Shown here: in pieces, positions 2,733 through 11,028 of the stretch
Layout of the letters: the number at the start of each line of letters is the position of its first letter
How positions within the stretch are numbered: the stretch's first letter is position 1
Made by a program: the position numbers and the translations under genes
Source: a methanotrophic endosymbiont of Bathymodiolus puteoserpentis (Logatchev)
GTDB lineage: Bacteria; Pseudomonadota; Gammaproteobacteria; Methylococcales; Methylomonadaceae
Length of the DNA: 64,000 nt
NCBI RefSeq assembly: GCF_900128525.1
Contig: NZ_FQTQ01000062.1
Coordinates: 62,001-126,000 of the forward strand
Reading direction: 5' to 3'
The notes under the pieces: model-generated
What the model was told of the DNA's origin: nothing
The model's input: the letters and a program-made list of their open reading frames with translations, nothing else
The model's database searches: none

Positions 2733-3215
2733 TTAAAGCCATACTGCATCCCACAAAGGATAATCACCGATCTTTTTTACTAAACCAGCTCTTAATGGGT
2801 TGGCAACAATATAGCGAGCTAAATGCTGTAAATCTTCTTCCTTTCTTACTGCGTGGTCATGATAGCCATCTTGCCACAAAGCTTGGTTCTGATTTAATTT
2901 TCCACGCTTACGGCGAATTTTTTGTATTTGCGTAGCTGAAATCCCCTTAGCACTACGCATGACTTGTTCTAGTTTACAGTTATTTTGTAGAGCAATAAGC
3001 CAATGAAAATGATCTGGCATAACTACAAAAGCTAAGCTATTTACTTTTTGTTCTTGATGTTGCTGTCGCATAGCCTGTACTACTATTCTGGCTAAAATAA
3101 AATCTGTAAAAATATTTTGCCTTTGATATGTCACCGTAGTCAGTAAATAAATTCGATTATTCTCAGAATATCGACCTTTCCTTAAGTCTACACTGTGCGG
3201 ATTGATATTATTCAT
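2733..3215 (-). CDS. rayT: REP-associated tyrosine transposase (RAYT)
   Basis: A 160-aa Y1 (HUH) single-strand transposase of the IS200-like superfamily. The metal-binding HUH motif is seen in FVVMPDHFHWL (about residues 85-95, HFH). The likely nucleophile is the Tyr of ARYIVANPLRAGLV near residue 138, in the motif typical of REP-associated transposases. REP palindromes flank the gene on both sides (2659-2730 and 3228-3443), and matching palindromes lie elsewhere in the window. This supports the view that this enzyme or a relative spreads them. It is not a classical insertion sequence because it has no terminal repeats of its own. Members of this family bind and cleave REP DNA, so its substrate is probably the local REP type. 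Confidence 0.9.
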   Translation of the reverse strand: MNNINPHSVDLRKGRYSENNRIYLLTTVTYQRQNIFTDFILARIVVQAMRQQHQEQKVNSLAFVVMPDHFHWLIALQNNCKLEQVMRSAKGISATQIQKIRRKRGKLNQNQALWQDGYHDHAVRKEEDLQHLARYIVANPLRAGLVKKIGDYPLWDAVWL

Positions 3216-3444: not shown

Positions 3445-3672
3445 CTATCTCTCCCACAAATGTAATATATCGGCACTCGAAAATGGCCAGCACAATTCTT
3501 TTTGTGACTCTAAATCCAATAATACCGGAATTTTAATCGCATAACGTTCTTGCCATTGCTCCTGCTCAGCAATATCGACTTTTGTAAAAGGAAGTTTTAA
3601 TTGTACAACTAAAGATTCTGCCTGTTCACATAAATGGCAAGCTGAGGTACCTAGCAACAATAACTGGCTCAA
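3445..3672 (-). CDS. Glutaredoxin-like thioredoxin-fold protein
   Basis: A 75-aa protein of the glutaredoxin-like DUF836 type, with a CHLC redox motif in [14 protein letters not shown] near the N-terminus and the cis-Pro region KIPVLLD. A longer ATG-initiated frame reaches 3747 but runs inside the upstream gene. I choose the TTG at 3670-3672 because a strong GAAGGAG ribosome site sits just before it, and the protein then begins at the conserved first strand ([14 protein letters not shown]). That TTG overlaps the TGA of the UPF0114 gene (TTGA), which indicates translational coupling. It is the last gene of the hcp-like operon. A thiol-disulfide or glutathione-linked role in that operon is plausible but is inference. 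Confidence 0.8.
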
Positions 3673-4160
3673 TGTTTCTCCTTCTTCTCTAATATCCCCA
3701 TCATAAAAGCAGAGAGTACAAAGGTTAAATGAATCACGACATACCAAAGTAATTTGTCATTCGCTATTTGCTCAGCATTCATAAATACCTTTAATAAATG
3801 TATGGATGAAATAGCCACAATCGATGAGGCAACTTTCATCTTCAAGGAACCATAATCATGCGTTCCTAGCCATGATAATTTTTCTGTTCCTTCAGCAATA
3901 TCTAAGCGTGAAACAAAATTATCGTAACCGCTAAACATGACAATAATGGTCAAGCTACTCACCAGCGTCAAATCAATAAAGGCAAGTAATTTCAACATTA
4001 ACGCCCCTTCACTCATATCTAAAATAGCAGGGATGAAATGGTATAACTCTTGAAAAAACTTAACGGTTAAAGCCATTAAAGCGATACTCATGCCTAAATA
4101 AATCGGTGCTAATAACCAGCGACAAGCATAAATCGAGCGTTCAATTATTCGTTCAATCAT
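3669..4160 (-). CDS. yqhA: UPF0114 (YqhA-like) membrane protein
   Basis: A 163-aa integral membrane protein of the UPF0114 family. It starts with the characteristic [28 protein letters not shown] segment. Predicted membrane helices lie near residues 12-34, 52-76, 107-125 and 134-155, with a conserved SGYDNFVSR loop after the second. The biochemical function of the family is not established. It starts 16 bp after the hcp-like gene and overlaps the glutaredoxin-like gene, so the three are almost certainly co-transcribed. The association suggests the membrane protein works with a redox pair; that is inference from gene order. Confidence 0.88.
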
Positions 4161-4176
4161 CTTTTTATTATTGAAT

Positions 4177-5883
4177 TTAACTATCCGCCTTAACTTCTAC
4201 GGCATCTTCAGAAACTATTTCAATACCTAACATTGCGGCAATATCATTTTCAGGCGTATCAATACCTTTAATCGCTAAAGATTGAGTTAATTTTTCTAAA
4301 ATCCCTGCGCTAAAAAATGGGGGTAAAGTTGGCCCAATGCGTACATCTTTAATACCCAGTGAAAATAGCGCCAACATCATTAAAATAGTTTGCTGCTCAT
4401 ACCAAGCGATATTAAAAGAAATAGGTAGTTCCGATAGATGACTTAATTGCATCGTTTTTTGCAAATGCCTTATAAATTCTAATATCGCATAAAAATCATA
4501 CGCCTGCCCAACATCGAGTAGACGTGGAATGCCATTAATCTCGCCTAAGTCTAAATCATGAAAACGATATTTAGTATCACCGGCGGTTAAAATAAGTGTA
4601 TCTTTCGGTAAAGCCTCAACTAATTGCGTGTAGTAACGGCGCTCTTTATGGCGACCATCACAACCTACCAAAACTATAATTTGCTGAATATCACCCGATT
4701 TAATTCCGCTGGTAATAGCTTCAGTTAACGTACAAAGCGCATGTAATCCATAGCCAACCGTCACCGCACCTTTGGTAAGCGGGGTAGGGGGGTCGCATTT
4801 TTTAGCTTGCTCAATAAGCGCCGAAAAATCTTTAGCCTCACTACTTCGACGCTTATCTATATGGGTCACATCCGGCCACCCGACCATACCAGAAGTATAA
4901 GCTTTATTAATATAGTCTTTTTTAGGTTGCTGCAAACTATTGCTGGTCACTAAAACAGGACCTTTAAATTTACTAAATTGAGTTTTTTGCTCCTGCCATG
5001 CACCGCCATAATTTGCGACTAAATTAAAATATTTCTTAAAAGCAGGGTAACTATGCGCAACAATCATTTCGCCATGGGTATAAATATCCACACCAGAGCC
5101 TGCGCTTTGCTCTAATAAGTCATATAAATCTTGTAAATCACTGCCAGTCACAAGAATACCGGGCTTATCCCAAGTATCTAGGTGTACTCGTGTTGGCTCA
5201 GGCTGGCCAAATTTTTGGATATTACTCTGCTCTAGCAAGCTCATCAACAATAAACTCTGCTCACCCGCCTTAAAGTTCATGGCTAAAAGATCATCTAAGT
5301 TCACATCTGTACGCAGAGTATAAGCAACAAGCTTATGCATAAAAGCATAATGTTCCACGTGAAACCTACCCAATACTTGAATATGTTCTAGCAAAGCACC
5401 TAGCCCTTTAGCTGCATAAATTAGCATTTCTCGCGCAGCATGTAGGTCAGCTTGCTCACTAGATAGCTCACCGCCTGCCATAACGCCAACGGTTTCACCC
5501 ATTTTAACAAAGGCTGCTTTATCACAAAGTTCATACTGCCATTGAGCTTCTTCAGGTATCGCCTCGTTTAATTCAACACCTTTTGCCAGCAATAAGCGTT
5601 TTAAATATTCACGGCGCTGTACAGTTTCAGCAATTAATTGTACGAAGACTGAAGCGTCAAAATTAACATTAGTGACCATTGAGTACAGCGCACGCGCCGT
5701 AAATTGATCAATATTTTGCGCATTAATTCCTACTTCTGCAGCTTTCACAGCATAAAAAGATAGGCCTTTTAGGGTATATGTCAATAAATCATGTAGACTA
5801 GAAACATCGGCTTTTTTCCCACAAATACCCGCAGTATCGCAAGCAACATTCTTTTTGGCTTCCTGGCAGTGATAACAAAACAT
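4177..5883 (-). CDS. Hybrid-cluster-protein (Hcp) family member lacking most hybrid-cluster ligands
   Basis: A 568-aa homologue of Hcp over its full length (hydroxylamine reductase / NO-responsive S-nitrosylase family). The N-terminal cluster cysteines are present as C3, C6, C15 and C21 (CX2CX8CX5C, the spacing of [4Fe-4S] Hcps). Of the seven ligands that hold the hybrid Fe-S-O cluster, I find the His (YTHGEM, H270), the persulfide Cys (VGCDG, C408) and the last Glu (WYEQ, E496). The others are replaced: Glu of the KxEF motif is Q302, Cys of TSNC is S316, Cys of AGCxKYR is D436 and Cys of GQCxD is A461. The surrounding motifs are well conserved, so the alignment is secure. A normal hybrid cluster cannot be expected, and the usual product name would mislead. 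It heads an operon with a UPF0114 protein and a glutaredoxin-like protein. The ribosome site AAGGAG lies 8 bp before the ATG. Confidence 0.88.
5351..5366. other. parS-like site inside the hcp-like gene
   Basis: TGTTCCACGTGAAACC matches the 16-bp parS consensus TGTTTCACGTGAAACA at 14 positions, with the central CACGTGAAAC intact. It lies within coding sequence (residues GRFHVEH of the Hcp-like protein), so it may be a weak ParB site or coincidence. The perfect sites are at 18419-18510. Confidence 0.4.
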
Positions 5884-5987: not shown

Positions 5988-7928
5988 CTAATAAACTTCT
6001 CTAAAATAAATTTGTTTATTATTACCTTTGTAAAGTCCAAAATTAACCCGTGCCGTAGGTAAATCATCATGCACACCATTAGCATTCCAGTCGAACAATA
6101 ACCAAGAATCAATTGTATTTAATAAAGATAAATCAACATAACCATAGGCATTTGCAGTACTAAACGCCAAGCCTGCGTCACCACCAGAAAAAGGGCTATT
6201 CGTTAATGTCGCTGTGGTACTCCCTGTTGTTCCGATAGTTATCGCTTGATTTCCCGCTTTTGTCGTACTGCCATTATTTAAGCTAAGCTGTGTTGCTAAA
6301 TTTATTACCGTACTATTATCAGCAAGATTCTTTATAAAGTTACGCCCATCATAATACTCAGTATATAGTGGAACGCTAAGCGGCATTAATTCAGACCCGT
6401 AAGCGTTAGCTAAAGCAATTCTCCCCCAGCGCTGCTCTTTAGTGCCAGAAAAACCAATGCCATTGCCTGCAGAAGGCGCTCCAAAAACAACTGGGTTAGT
6501 TTGCGGCAAACCATTAACATTCGCCACCTCGACTCCATCCGTATCAACCAGCGTAAAACTCAATGCAATTTCAGCGTCAAAAGGTGCTGTTAAAGTACTT
6601 TTTGCAAGCGCCAAAATATTGCTACTGGTATCAGAAAAGTTGAGAGTACCACGACCCTCGCCATTATCCATTACTGCAGGCGCACTCGCATCAATAACCA
6701 TTAATGCATGGCTAGCTTCTGTATAAATAGGCGTAATGCCATAACTTGCATGTATTGGATTTATTTTCCAATAGCTTCCTGTGTAATTTTTAGTCGTTCC
6801 CCCCACTGCGTTTTTTGCCATTAATGTAGCAACGGGGCTGATTGTATACCTCACTGGCTGACCGAGATAAGTGAAGGTAGTATTGGCGGTGCTAAATTCA
6901 GGTGCATTCAACAAAACATCAAAATGGTCAGGAATAAATCGCCCTATCGTCAAAGTCGAATGATAAGCAAAATTACACCCGACCTTGCCACCAACCGGAG
7001 TATTCGTAAAACTCCCGACAATACAGTCACCTCCTGCTTGATCTACAGAGGTAAAACTATCATCATAAATATCATTAGCGGCAAATTTTACTAAACCGAC
7101 TTCATCATATTTAAAGTGTGAGCCGGCCGCTGCTCCGATATTTTTATCTGCACTTGCAAATACGCCTGATAATTTATTCACTTGGGCACTATTATTATGA
7201 TCGTGCAGAGTACTATTAATTTTTGGTGTGCCGCTATAGCCAGCCACGCCTGTACTTGCCGTGATAGTAAAAAAATCTCTGCCTGCTTTTGCCGTAATAC
7301 CTGTACCTAAGCTGATATTGTTCATATTAGACGTAACGGCTCTAAAGCGTGTAGGACGAATGGCAAAGCTATCTGTAGAACAGCCGACAACAGCAGCATC
7401 CGTGATTCGACATTTAACATACCTGTATGCACCGCTGGAACTTATTATGTTGCTTGTTTTTCTACCCGCATCACCTGCTGTAAAATTTATATGTTGTGAG
7501 CTAATAACCGGATAACTCGTACATGAGCCAATACTTGCATCCACCAATTCAAACTTAATATTGTGATCTATAAGATTCGCAAAATCAGTCTCTACCTGCG
7601 TTGCATCACGCAAAGCTATCACATCAAAGTTAAAAGATTGTGCCGTCGTTTTAGTATATAGCTTGCCATTAATGCCATTAGCCCCCGCTTCTACACAGTT
7701 AAAATTAGTTGCGGATCTATCATTGCTGCTGTCTTTATCATCTTCATCATCTTTATCGTCTTTATCGTCTTTATCGTCTTTATCATCTTTATCATCTTTA
7801 TCATCTTTATCGTCTTCATCGCCTTTATCGCCTTTATCAACTTCATAACTATCATCACTAGCATAACTTGGAACAGCTGCACTCGATAAAACAAAAGCCA
7901 CCAATAACTGCAATATTACTTTACTCAT
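5988..7928 (-). CDS. mshQ: MshQ-like (DUF6701) secreted protein
   Basis: A 646-aa exported protein. It has a signal peptide (about residues 1-23, cleavage after SYA) and a low-complexity acidic KDD repeat (about 31-66). A long beta-rich region follows with the features of the DUF6701 domain of MSHA biogenesis protein MshQ: FAIRPTRF near 190, IGRFIPDHFDV near 315, and the C-terminal run WLLFDWNANGVHDDLPTARVNFGLYKG. MshQ is encoded with MSHA pilin genes and is thought to be an accessory, surface-exposed part of the system. Canonical MshQ proteins are longer, so the N-terminal part is reduced here and replaced by the KDD stretch. In most MSHA loci mshQ follows mshP; here it is on the opposite strand on the other side of mshA, so the locus is rearranged. 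Confidence 0.82.
   Translation of the reverse strand: MSKVILQLLVAFVLSSAAVPSYASDDSYEVDKGDKGDEDDKDDKDDKDDKDDKDDKDDKDDEDDKDSSNDRSATNFNCVEAGANGINGKLYTKTTAQSFNFDVIALRDATQVETDFANLIDHNIKFELVDASIGSCTSYPVISSQHINFTAGDAGRKTSNIISSSGAYRYVKCRITDAAVVGCSTDSFAIRPTRFRAVTSNMNNISLGTGITAKAGRDFFTITASTGVAGYSGTPKINSTLHDHNNSAQVNKLSGVFASADKNIGAAAGSHFKYDEVGLVKFAANDIYDDSFTSVDQAGGDCIVGSFTNTPVGGKVGCNFAYHSTLTIGRFIPDHFDVLLNAPEFSTANTTFTYLGQPVRYTISPVATLMAKNAVGGTTKNYTGSYWKINPIHASYGITPIYTEASHALMVIDASAPAVMDNGEGRGTLNFSDTSSNILALAKSTLTAPFDAEIALSFTLVDTDGVEVANVNGLPQTNPVVFGAPSAGNGIGFSGTKEQRWGRIALANAYGSELMPLSVPLYTEYYDGRNFIKNLADNSTVINLATQLSLNNGSTTKAGNQAITIGTTGSTTATLTNSPFSGGDAGLAFSTANAYGYVDLSLLNTIDSWLLFDWNANGVHDDLPTARVNFGLYKGNNKQIYFREVY
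7731..7838. repeat. 9-bp tandem repeat encoding (KDD)n in mshQ
   Basis: Near-perfect units of TTTATCGTC/TTTATCATC on the plus strand encode Lys-Asp-Asp in the minus-strand mshQ gene, residues 31-66. The unit is a multiple of three, so slippage would change linker length without shifting frame. This is length-variable linker DNA, not a phase switch. Confidence 0.85.
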
Positions 7929-8474: not shown

Positions 8475-8912
8475 ATGATGGCAAAAAATAAGCAGCAAGG
8501 TTTTACATTAATTGAATTAATCATGGTTATTGTAATTTTAGGGATTTTAGCGGCTACGGCATTGCCGAAGTTTGCAGACCTAGGCAAAGATGCCCGCATT
8601 GCTGCACTAGAGAGTGCAGAAGCAGCCATGAAGTCGGCCATGGCGATGACACATGGGCAGTCGTTAATTAATGGTAACCCTAATGCCAATATAACAGTTG
8701 AAGGGGTAGCCGTTCGTATGATTAATGGATACCCAGCAAAAACAACAAATGGCATTGATAGAACACTTAATTTATCCGGAGATTTAAGTGTAAGAAACGG
8801 AGTCATTTCAATTGCAGGAGCAGCAACACCGACAAGATGCCTCGTTACTTATAACCAAGCAAGCTCAACTACTCGCCCAGCAACAACAAGCCTTATAACA
8901 ACCGGCTGTTAA
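8475..8912 (+). CDS. mshA: MshA-like major type IV prepilin
   Basis: A 145-aa type IVa prepilin. The short leader MMAKNKQQG ends in the G/F prepilin-peptidase site and is followed by FTLIELIMVIVILGILAATALPKF, with Glu at position +5 of the mature protein. The ALPKFADLGKDARIAALE segment after the hydrophobic helix is typical of MshA. Two Cys near the C-terminus (RCLVTYN and the final GC) would form the D-region disulfide. It has a good AAGGAAGGA ribosome site; two adjacent ATGs exist and the first (8475) is taken. It is the first gene of an mshA-C-D-O-P series and is probably the major subunit. Confidence 0.88.
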   Translation: MMAKNKQQGFTLIELIMVIVILGILAATALPKFADLGKDARIAALESAEAAMKSAMAMTHGQSLINGNPNANITVEGVAVRMINGYPAKTTNGIDRTLNLSGDLSVRNGVISIAGAATPTRCLVTYNQASSTTRPATTSLITTGC

Positions 8913-8998
8913 AATTACCTTTCAGAGCATCAAGCCTATTGCCAAGCTAAAAATAGATGCGAGCTATTCAGGTCGCGTCTATATAGGTTTCTATAACA

Positions 8999-9466
8999 AT
9001 GTTCCATAAAAAACAATTCGGCTTTACGCTAATTGAACTAATCATGGTTCTGGTTATGCTAGGCATTCTATCTGCGACAGCACTACCAAAATTCTTTACA
9101 AAAGATGTCTTTGCCGAACACGCTTTCTTTAGCGACACTCTAAACGCTATCCGCTACGCCCAAAAACTCGCAGTAACAACCGGCTGCAATGTCCAGGTTG
9201 CAATTAGTTCCAACAGCTACACCTTAACTCGACAAGGCACTTCCACTAGCACCTCTTGTGCTGGGTCAACTTATCAGTTAGCGATTCCTCATCCTAGCTC
9301 AGGCGCTAGTACATATTCGGGTAGTGAATCAGGTATTACCCTAACTAGCTCTGTCTCTCCTTTCTATTTTCACCCCTTAGGCACTGCATCAAATGATGTT
9401 ACTTTAACCATTAATGGTGCAAAAACTATTTATATAACAGCTGCCACAGGGTTTGTTTATGAATAA
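8999..9466 (+). CDS. mshC: MshC-like minor prepilin
   Basis: A 155-aa prepilin-like protein. The leader MFHKKQFG is followed by FTLIELIMVLVMLGILSATALPKFF and then by DTLNAIRYAQKLAVTTGCNVQV. This region is typical of MshC/FimT/GspH-like minor pilins. It lies 86 bp after mshA and overlaps the next gene by 8 bp. MshC-type minor pilins are needed for assembly of MSHA pili, probably at the tip. The position between mshA and mshD supports the name. Confidence 0.82.
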   Translation: MFHKKQFGFTLIELIMVLVMLGILSATALPKFFTKDVFAEHAFFSDTLNAIRYAQKLAVTTGCNVQVAISSNSYTLTRQGTSTSTSCAGSTYQLAIPHPSSGASTYSGSESGITLTSSVSPFYFHPLGTASNDVTLTINGAKTIYITAATGFVYE

Positions 9467-9818
9467 AAATCGAGCGCAATTAGGTATCACACTCATTGAG
9501 TTAATCATTTCTATGGTGATTATCAGTATTTCCTTAACCGGTATTTTTACCGTCATGAATTTAACGGTCAGCCATAGTGCTGATCCTGTTATATACCACC
9601 AAGCCCTTTCTATTGCTGAAGCGTGCTTAGAAGAAACCTTATTAGAGCCTTATACAAGTTTAAGCCCCTGTACATTAAGCAATATACCGGCAAACTATAA
9701 TGTTTCCTCAAATATTAGTCATGAGGTACTGTCAGGTATACCTGTAAAAAAGGTATTAGTCACTGCCACAAGTGGCAGTACAAGCATAGAACTGGCCGGC
9801 TATAGGGCGAATTACTAA
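9459..9818 (+). CDS. mshD: MshD-like minor prepilin
   Basis: A short prepilin with leader MNKNRAQLG, followed by ITLIELIISMVIISISLTGIFTVMNLT. Of the possible starts, the ATG at 9459 gives a normal prepilin leader; the TTG at 9453 would add only two residues. It is 119 aa, shorter than many MshD proteins (around 180-200 aa), so the C-terminal domain is reduced. It overlaps mshC by 8 bp and shares a TAATG junction with mshO, so translation is probably coupled. Confidence 0.75.
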   Translation: MNKNRAQLGITLIELIISMVIISISLTGIFTVMNLTVSHSADPVIYHQALSIAEACLEETLLEPYTSLSPCTLSNIPANYNVSSNISHEVLSGIPVKKVLVTATSGSTSIELAGYRANY

Positions 9819-10621
9819 TGCATAACCGACAGACAAAGGGCTTTACGCTTATTGAGCTGATTATGGTCATTGTTATTATCGGTATTTTATCGACCATAAC
9901 CACAGACCTTATCACCTTACCTGTTAAAAGTTATCTTGACCTAGAACGGCGCACGACTTTAGTTGATAGTGCAGAAATGAGTTTACGCCGTATGCAGCGC
10001 GATATTCGCCGCGCTTTACCGAATAGTATTATTGCCAATGGCGGCACAACGATTGAATTATTACATACCAGCGAAGGCGGACGTTATCGTGCTAATGTCT
10101 CTGACGCAGGTCTTGGAGATATTTTAGACTTCACCACAGCGGATGCTCAATTTGATGTTATTGGCCCATTAAGCACGACTCCAAGTGGTTATTTAGTTAT
10201 TTATAATACCGGCACACTCGGTGCAAATGCTTATGCCCATGATAATCTTGTCAGTATTAATAAGGGAGCATCGACACTCAATAGTATTCAATTAACAACG
10301 GCAAAGCGATTTCCTTATCGCTCGCCACAGCAGCGATTTTTTATTGTTGATACACCGATTACTTATAGTTGCACCAATGGTGAACTGCGTCGTTATGATA
10401 ATAAAATTGATAGTTCATATACTATTAGCAGTCCATCACCTTCCTTGTCACGATTAAGATATAAGCTCCAGGCTAAAGCCAAAATGCTCAGCTGCCAGTT
10501 TGATTATGATCCCGGAAGTGCAACACGTGCCGCTTTGGTTACAATTGAAATTAAACTTACGGATGATGCAGGAGAATCAGTTAAGCTAATTCATCAGGTG
10601 CATGTGGATAATATGCCATGA
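9818..10621 (+). CDS. mshO: MshO-like minor prepilin
   Basis: A 267-aa prepilin-like protein. Its leader MHNRQTKG precedes FTLIELIMVIVIIGILSTITTDLI, and the following LRRMQRDIRRALPNSI segment is the hallmark of MshO/PilW/GspJ-like minor pilins. The start overlaps the mshD stop (TAATG), and the stop overlaps the mshP start (ATGA). It is probably part of the pilus initiation complex; the function is inferred from the family. Confidence 0.82.
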   Translation: MHNRQTKGFTLIELIMVIVIIGILSTITTDLITLPVKSYLDLERRTTLVDSAEMSLRRMQRDIRRALPNSIIANGGTTIELLHTSEGGRYRANVSDAGLGDILDFTTADAQFDVIGPLSTTPSGYLVIYNTGTLGANAYAHDNLVSINKGASTLNSIQLTTAKRFPYRSPQQRFFIVDTPITYSCTNGELRRYDNKIDSSYTISSPSPSLSRLRYKLQAKAKMLSCQFDYDPGSATRAALVTIEIKLTDDAGESVKLIHQVHVDNMP

Positions 10622-11028
10622 ATAAACAGCAAGGATTTTCTATTATCATGGCTATTTTTATCTTAATAGTGCTTAGCCTATTAGGTAGTTATATGCTTAA
10701 ACTAAGTGGCGTACAACATGCAACCGCGGTGAGCGCAATACAAGGTGCGCGTGCATATTATGCGGCAAGAGCCGGAGTAGAATGGGGAGTGGCGAAATTA
10801 CTTAATAATGATAGCTGCGCTACTAGTTCGACATTGGCTATCAATAACTTTGCAGTCTCTGTAAGCTGTCGTAATCAAGGAATCAGTTATAACGAAGGGG
10901 ATTTGAATAGTAACGGCTTAGCGGATGATGATTTTTATATCTATAAAATCGAAAGCACAGCTAGTTATGGTCATTTTACTAGTCCTGATTATGTTTATCG
11001 GCACCTGGAAATAACGGTAAAAAAATAG
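10618..11028 (+). CDS. mshP: MshP-like minor pilin/PilX-type protein
   Basis: A 136-aa protein. The N-terminus MNKQQGFSIIMAIFILIVLSLLG is a class III-like signal/transmembrane helix of the PilX/GspK/MshP kind. The next segment, ARAYYAARAGVEWGVAKL, is the conserved AGxEW-type motif. It overlaps mshO by ATGA and is the last pilin gene before a REP palindrome that probably ends the transcript. mshQ, which normally follows, is not downstream here. Confidence 0.8.
   Translation: MNKQQGFSIIMAIFILIVLSLLGSYMLKLSGVQHATAVSAIQGARAYYAARAGVEWGVAKLLNNDSCATSSTLAINNFAVSVSCRNQGISYNEGDLNSNGLADDDFYIYKIESTASYGHFTSPDYVYRHLEITVKK

Follow-up and report, generated by a model that had tools for sequence, protein, structure and literature searches.

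The locus raises the question of whether a protein that curated models score as a hydroxylamine reductase still carries the ligands of the hybrid-cluster protein (Hcp) family and, if not, what it might do instead. The gene lies in the window (the whole stretch of 64,000 nucleotides that was analysed, part of contig C62 of genome G000, which is 99.99% complete), and its product, for which we use the name HcpX, is the sole Hcp-family match in that genome. As an earlier sequence-only reading of ORF 4177-5883 had proposed, the product belongs to the Hcp family: it scored 562.7 bits against NCBIfam TIGR01703 (cut-off 360.8) and 608.1 bits against NF003658 (hydroxylamine reductase; cut-off 367), and it matched Pfam Prismane. 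The closest named protein, among the matches listed, was from a Methyloprofundus sp. MAG (85%).

An HcpX with an altered hybrid-cluster site

An AlphaFold2 model of HcpX, built from a 43-row alignment, had a mean pLDDT of 88.7 and a pTM of 0.90, with weaker parts in the first 20 residues (the cubane region, pLDDT 50-58) and the last 12 (<50). Its top Foldseek match in the PDB was D. vulgaris Hcp (1e2u; TM 0.90, E 4.5e-54), followed by other Hcp and then by CO dehydrogenases at TM ~0.54 (13% identity); the alignment with 1e2u spans residues 1 to 552. By Prismane membership and Hcp fold, HcpX of the window belongs with class I Hcp (D. vulgaris, D. desulfuricans, Methanothermococcus), with which it shares the full-length fold (41% identity in the structural alignment), the cubane spacing and the two ligand Glu. 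It differs from these proteins in lacking the His and three Cys of the hybrid-cluster set, and is a class I Hcp-fold protein without four of the seven ligands. The gene and the relevant codons are as follows.

4177..5883, minus strand: HcpX, class I Hcp homologue without most hybrid-cluster ligands, 568 aa (ORF, profile matches, AlphaFold, Foldseek)
5821..5877, minus strand: cubane motif of a putative [4Fe-4S] cluster, C3-x2-C6-x8-C15-x5-C21, four of four Cys present (sequence)
5140..5142, minus strand: codon 248, AGT, Ser where the family has its ligand His (34 of the 38 clade members keep His; alignment)
5068..5070, minus strand: codon 272, GAA, ligand Glu retained (38 of 38; alignment)
4936..4938, minus strand: codon 316, AGT, Ser in place of a ligand Cys (Ser in 37, Asn in 1 of 38; alignment)
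4660..4662, minus strand: codon 408, TGT, Cys retained in the persulfide-Cys column (alignment)
4576..4578, minus strand: codon 436, GAT, Asp in place of a ligand Cys (Asp in 32, Glu in 6 of 38; alignment)
4501..4503, minus strand: codon 461, GCG, Ala in place of a ligand Cys (alignment)
4396..4398, minus strand: codon 496, GAG, ligand Glu retained (38 of 38; alignment)

The seven ligand columns read H, E, C, C, C, C, E in the family, at what we take to be residues 244, 268, 312, 406, 434, 459 and 494 of D. vulgaris Hcp. In the window protein they read SESCDAE (S248, E272, S316, C408, D436, A461, E496), the changes being His to Ser248 and Cys to Ser316, Asp436 and Ala461. The sequence-only reading had also arrived at four losses, and its count stands, but its membership does not, as the true set is the His and three Cys. 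It had taken Q302 for a lost ligand Glu and H270 for the surviving ligand His, and both residues fall in different columns. The ligand Glu is retained as E272, because its column reads THGEM in the 1e2u alignment, and the ligand His is lost, because the same alignment places TGSDL opposite SGHDL; the S248 codon (5140-5142) falls outside the interval of 4396-5076 that had been singled out. Column 270 is His in 33/34 canonical proteins and 38/38 clade members, while column 302 is Glu in 30, Asp in 3 and Gln in 1 of the 34 canonical proteins and Gln in 26, Glu in 7 and Asp in 5 of the 38. The remaining parts of that reading agree with ours, namely the intact cubane cysteines C3, C6, C15 and C21, the replacements at 316, 436 and 461 with their codons (agt, gat, gcg), and the persistence of C408 and E496, which follows from the 1e2u alignment and from Methanothermococcus Hcp, whose Cys402 and Glu490, named as Fe8 ligands in the available part of PMC10210160, align with these two residues. 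For class III Hcp, the part of PMC10502027 available names His193 and Glu217 as ligands; the offset of the 7e0l match (query 201 = chain 146), rather than a residue-by-residue comparison, places these on columns 248 and 272. The window HcpX also lacks the Cys set of the Ni,Fe-CO dehydrogenase C-cluster: C408 is the only Cys in the four ligand-Cys columns common to Hcp and that enzyme.

A constrained clade within Methylococcales

We scanned genome contigs with six exact peptide patterns from the window HcpX, retaining the best 80 matches, and separately searched 311 genomes of the order. Together these gave an HcpX group (52-85% identity to the window protein) that was separated from canonical Hcp (at most 45%). 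HcpX is carried by 41/311 genomes, distributed over six genus codes (g1, 17; g3, 7; g9, 6; g17, 6; g33, 4; g20, 1). By score, a second, canonical Hcp occurs in 20 of the 41 and was not detected in 21, some of which are incomplete genomes; in the five second copies whose ligands were read (L027-L030 and L134), each set is HECCCCE. Two HcpX copies (G005, G012) are broken by contig ends. Six of the 41 rows were flagged for a stop, which we attribute to the terminal stop because their frames run 548-560 aa.

Residues were compared in 38 non-redundant HcpX proteins of at least 480 aa, so that ligands were read in these copies rather than in each of the 41 genomes; shorter fragments (L018/L050, L021/L053) and copies identical over the first 540 aa were set aside. 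Six canonical rows (L060, L069, L078, L080, L085, L093) were removed from the 49 initially offered for alignment, and the 34 canonical rows of the residue comparison exclude L192, which has a very long branch and was kept in the tree.

None of the 38 has the full seven-ligand set, and both ligand glutamates (272 and 496) are present in all. The His column is the least altered (H 34, S 2, Q 1, N 1), column 408 holds C 22, T 8, Y 4, A 3 and G 1, and column 461 holds S 17, T 14, A 2, N 2, V 1, I 1 and G 1, with Cys in 0/38. All four ligand-Cys columns are without Cys in 16/38 proteins. We looked for substitute Cys elsewhere in the 38, which would have supplied the missing ligands, but outside the cubane no Cys is conserved well enough; the most frequent are those at 206 in 29/38, 363 in 25/38 and 408 in 22/38. 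Nor do close relatives retain the replaced ligands: they share the changes seen in the window, except at position 248, where His is absent in just 4/38.

The class I cubane spacing, with all four Cys, is found in the window protein and in 37/38 members of the clade, and between C3 and C6 the clade has its own His5, where 65/66 canonical proteins have Gln. The exception is the copy in G001 (L012/L144), whose match begins at residue 20. It retains C21 only and cannot have a normal cubane because residues 1-19, with three cubane Cys, are missing. The truncation is far from contig ends, a second piece of HcpX occurs on a different contig, and the copy, with its N-terminus missing or replaced (L144 1520-3148), may be a damaged gene.

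In a tree of 73 proteins from which the seven ligand columns had been removed (short search, SH-aLRT support, no bootstrap, every third canonical protein of L055-L110 sampled), HcpX proteins form one clade with a support of 100. Its sister (support 96) is L134, from a Methylococcales genome (G305) that also has an HcpX; L134 is 45% identical to the window protein and, unlike it, has all seven ligands (HECCCCE). The usual canonical Hcp of the order sits on the other side of the tree. As a separate observation, L134 (7961-9640), fully liganded and of class I, is of a different type from the canonical Hcp usual in Methylococcales, and by eye it has no reductase gene among its surrounding ORFs. 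The simplest history is that a class I Hcp already present in the order lost the site once, with duplication and transfer not distinguishable.

No second case was found outside Methylococcales among the loci read in a class sample of 369 genomes, of which 16, counting the window's own, had a match, or in a phylum sample of 398 genomes, where 38 did on the same count. These loci were canonical in every column covered; L159 covers the cubane only, L193 begins after the His, and eight weaker-match genomes of the phylum sample gave no locus. A distant HcpX outside the order could be missed, because the scan used six exact patterns and retained the best 80 matches.

Several measures indicate that the gene is under constraint. 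For 10 HcpX pairs dN/dS (Nei-Gojobori) was 0.056-0.212, ratios that are rough because dS is near or above 1 in most pairs, and synonymous codon variation is present at conserved sites. Fitch counts inside the clade were 0 for E272 and E496, 1 for D436 and S316, 4 for H248, 7 for C408 and 8 for A461, compared with an average of 5.7 across 552 columns, 115 of which have zero changes; the carboxylate positions are frozen and two former sulfur positions are drifting. Sites within 4 residues of the seven ligand positions changed 2.57 times on average versus 5.18 for random sites (p 0.0016; 20,000 draws of seven random sites between 205 and 547), which shows that the region is still constrained and not why, because Hcp motifs are generally conserved and neither burial nor motif content was matched. 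Of 130 columns near-invariant in the 34 canonical proteins, 70 are retained in at least 95% of the 38 HcpX proteins, including H270, N315, D409, G410, Q460, W494 and Q497 near the ligands in sequence, and 60 are not, K498, P275 and N462 among them. Clade-specific changes include His for Gln5, Thr for Ala499, Phe for Ser464 and, in most members, Leu for Ala471, where the window protein has Ile. Overall, HcpX is a conserved, constrained, single-clade Hcp paralogue without the family ligand set. Its single clade, strong constraint and fully liganded sister fit our preferred reading of it as a neofunctionalised class I Hcp paralogue of Methylococcales, and the suggestion of a distinct subfamily is supported, its second site being altered yet still constrained. 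We found no description of the altered clade in the titles and abstract openings of the open-access papers that our searches listed.

Partner reductase and neighbouring genes

Canonical Hcp of methanotrophs provides the closest comparison. It is documented in Methylobacter, where Hcp/Hcr is a NO-stress system supported by mutants (available part of PMC6977074), and in Crenothrix D3, where the authors checked the ligands (available part of PMC5563964). It occurs in the same order and family as HcpX, often in the same genome, but forms a separate clade with 36-40% identity to HcpX and carries HECCCCE in the nine loci read (L022-L030). The canonical Hcp of the genus (L030) adjoins a 2Fe-2S/FAD/NAD reductase, whose best NCBIfam match is MmoC (407.5 bits, below the cut-off of 500). 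We considered this reductase as an Hcr, but it scored only 82 bits against the E. coli Hcr model (cut-off 383) and is termed MmoC-like here.

With the MmoC-like reductase as query, matches above 360 bits were found in 12/61 genomes: 11 of the 13 genomes with canonical Hcp (not G053 or G056), in which it accompanies that protein in contrast to HcpX, and G012 (71% complete), in which HcpX alone was detected. Of the 13 HcpX-only genomes in the sample, 11, including that of the window, had no MmoC-like match at E 1e-40; the other two were G014, with a weak match (38% identity), and G012, with the strong one. The NADH reductase Hcr, a common though not universal partner of class I Hcp, was likewise not found, as its E. 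coli-type model (NF007964) had no match at E 1e-20 in the window genome and none above cut-off in any of the 61 genomes, while the E. coli control was detected. Weaker NF007964 matches to other reductases occurred in 36/61 genomes.

Two genes follow HcpX in the window.

3669..4160, minus strand: UPF0114/TIGR00645 protein, 16-base gap downstream of HcpX (profile matches)
3445..3747, minus strand: glutaredoxin-like protein (DUF836, CHLC motif), overlapping the UPF0114 gene (profile match)

The UPF0114 gene is probably co-transcribed with HcpX. The neighbour scan covered 15 of the 17 HcpX genomes in the window's genus and 22 of the 24 in other genera, with gaps taken between BLAST matches and not gene ends. 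The order HcpX-UPF0114-glutaredoxin was found in 13/15 same-genus loci, the exceptions being L004 (24 bases of flank before a contig end) and L007 (1.5 kb without either gene), and in 0/22 loci of other genera. The idea that these neighbours mark the whole clade failed on this comparison, and both genes were ruled out as obligate partners, being seen inside the window's genus only.

In other genera, metG lies within 270 bases upstream of HcpX in 17/22 loci (not in L040, with 154 bases of flank, L043, 1.7 kb away, L048, L051 or L133), and an RnfB-like gene (Fer4_21 and FeS domains) lies within 50 bases downstream or overlaps HcpX in 15/22 (not in those five, L042 or L047, the last with 67 bases of flank). 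A partnership between RnfB and HcpX is suggestive only. The link may be positional, because metG and rnfB also adjoin without HcpX in other genera (L205, L211) and HcpX of the window's genus is not adjacent to rnfB.

Some further features of these loci were recorded. In genus g9, an AAA_15/DUF3696 ATPase can follow HcpX by ~15 bases, in place of rnfB (L043 4669-6003, L133 6748-7956). In Methylobacter-like genomes (L127 4467-6638), metG-hcpX-rnfB-nth is followed by a small Cys-rich, secreted-looking peptide (no Pfam match) and an MbnB/TglH/ChrH-family enzyme (PF05114), apparently a RiPP cluster. In the window, a REP-associated tyrosine transposase (NF047646) occupies 2733-3215, between the glutaredoxin-like gene and fumarase; fumarase lies 1.55 kb after the Hcp gene here versus 0.77-0.91 kb in seven related loci. 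At 42-1178, a 178-aa ORF without Pfam or NCBIfam match (transposase-like by eye) abuts a 197-aa T2SSF ORF that looks like a shortened gene. On the other side, a DUF6701 protein (5988-7928) has a low-complexity Asp/Lys repeat after a signal-like N-terminus, and adjoins pilin-like genes at 8475-11028, the first matching N_methyl and the others assigned by eye.

Proposed function and alternatives

The first shell has changed from four Cys, His and two Glu, and for this reason HcpX should not build the normal Fe-S-O hybrid cluster with its persulfide chemistry, judging from known Hcp structures; the four N-terminal Cys predict a [4Fe-4S] cubane. Our preferred reading, to which we give a probability of roughly 0.4, is that HcpX is a neofunctionalised redox protein that would combine this [4Fe-4S] with a carboxylate-rich pocket, perhaps a small O/N-ligated metal site. 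In this reading the hybrid-cluster pocket persists, with a first shell that now consists of two glutamates and the acid at 436 (Asp or Glu), all three invariant, of His248 in most members, and otherwise largely of residues that are small or carry a hydroxyl. Its three carboxylates, with His248 where present, would hold a putative O/N-ligated metal, probably iron, as a mono- or dinuclear centre. This centre may be reduced via the cubane by a ferredoxin-type donor, for which the RnfB-like protein encoded beside HcpX in several genera is a candidate, and a small oxidant (O2, peroxide or NO) is the natural guess at its substrate.

The ligand columns in the 38, the Fitch counts, the flank test, the retained residues beside the ligands, dN/dS, the tree, the model, the missing reductase and the RnfB-like gene all speak for this reading. 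His248 is weakened as an essential ligand because four members, including the window protein with Ser, lack it, and bulkier residues near the site in sequence (Phe464 and Leu471; Ile471 in the window) could occupy an empty pocket, which speaks against a metal there. The wider proposal, which we hold to be conceivable yet doubtful, is that in aerobic methanotrophs the Prismane/Hcp fold exchanged its Fe-S-O hybrid cluster for a metal centre free of sulfur and held by carboxylates, with His as an optional ligand, and that electrons still enter by the [4Fe-4S] cluster.

The alternative that survives best, a serious contender though short of probable, is a pseudo-enzyme whose second site is metal-free, so that only the [4Fe-4S] would work (as an electron carrier, an O2/NO sensor or a scaffold) and the acids would serve folding or hydrogen bonding. 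The 7 and 8 changes in two of the four former Cys columns, the four changes in the His column, the bulkier clade-specific F464, L471 and T499 near the site in sequence, and the cubane Cys with clade-specific His5 in 37/38 are all consistent with such a protein. Three invariant acids would be costly without a cation in a pocket that is buried in known Hcp structures, however, and the stretches flanking the sites vary less than randomly drawn positions do.

A residual or altered Fe-S-O cluster, held by Glu272, Glu496, Asp436, C408 and O donors and keeping weak NO or hydroxylamine chemistry, appears improbable. It has a precedent in variants of Ni,Fe-CO dehydrogenase, of the same superfamily as HcpX, in which an acid (Asp or Glu) replaces some Cys at the catalytic cluster (available part of PMC6344411), and C408 is present in the window and in 22/38. 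In the dehydrogenases as described there, however, it is the second Cys that varies and the three C-terminal Cys are highly conserved, whereas the same three columns are replaced or drifting in HcpX; the HcpX proteins without any ligand-column Cys, and the absence of the canonical reductase in 11/13 HcpX-only genomes, also argue against it. The view that HcpX is an ordinary Hcp gene altered by decay, mis-assembly or sequencing error was rejected for the clade: the window member is among the more altered ones (no His, Ala at 461) and its G001 relative has a cut N-terminus with a second fragment elsewhere, but close relatives share the replacements across six genus codes, the clade occurs in 41/311 genomes of the order, and dN/dS is at most 0.21 in the pairs computed.

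Returning to the proposed redox protein, HcpX belongs to the Hcp family by fold and cubane and should nevertheless be classed neither as Hcp nor as hydroxylamine reductase, since it lacks the defining ligand set; the automatic label 'hydroxylamine reductase' is probably wrong. Genome papers can count HcpX as NO or hydroxylamine chemistry because it scores far above the cut-offs of curated models. In the available part of PMC8788690, hcp is scored present in four Methyloprofundus genomes, and INp10 has two hcp homologues, one of them highly transcribed; in our set, genome G008 has one HcpX and one canonical Hcp. If the metal site is confirmed, the clade would represent a stepwise replacement of an Fe-S-O cluster and would serve as a natural control in finding which ligands Hcp needs to act as an NO reductase. 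An iron-sulfur catalyst would then have been converted naturally, in aerobic methanotrophs, to a non-haem metal catalyst with O/N ligands.
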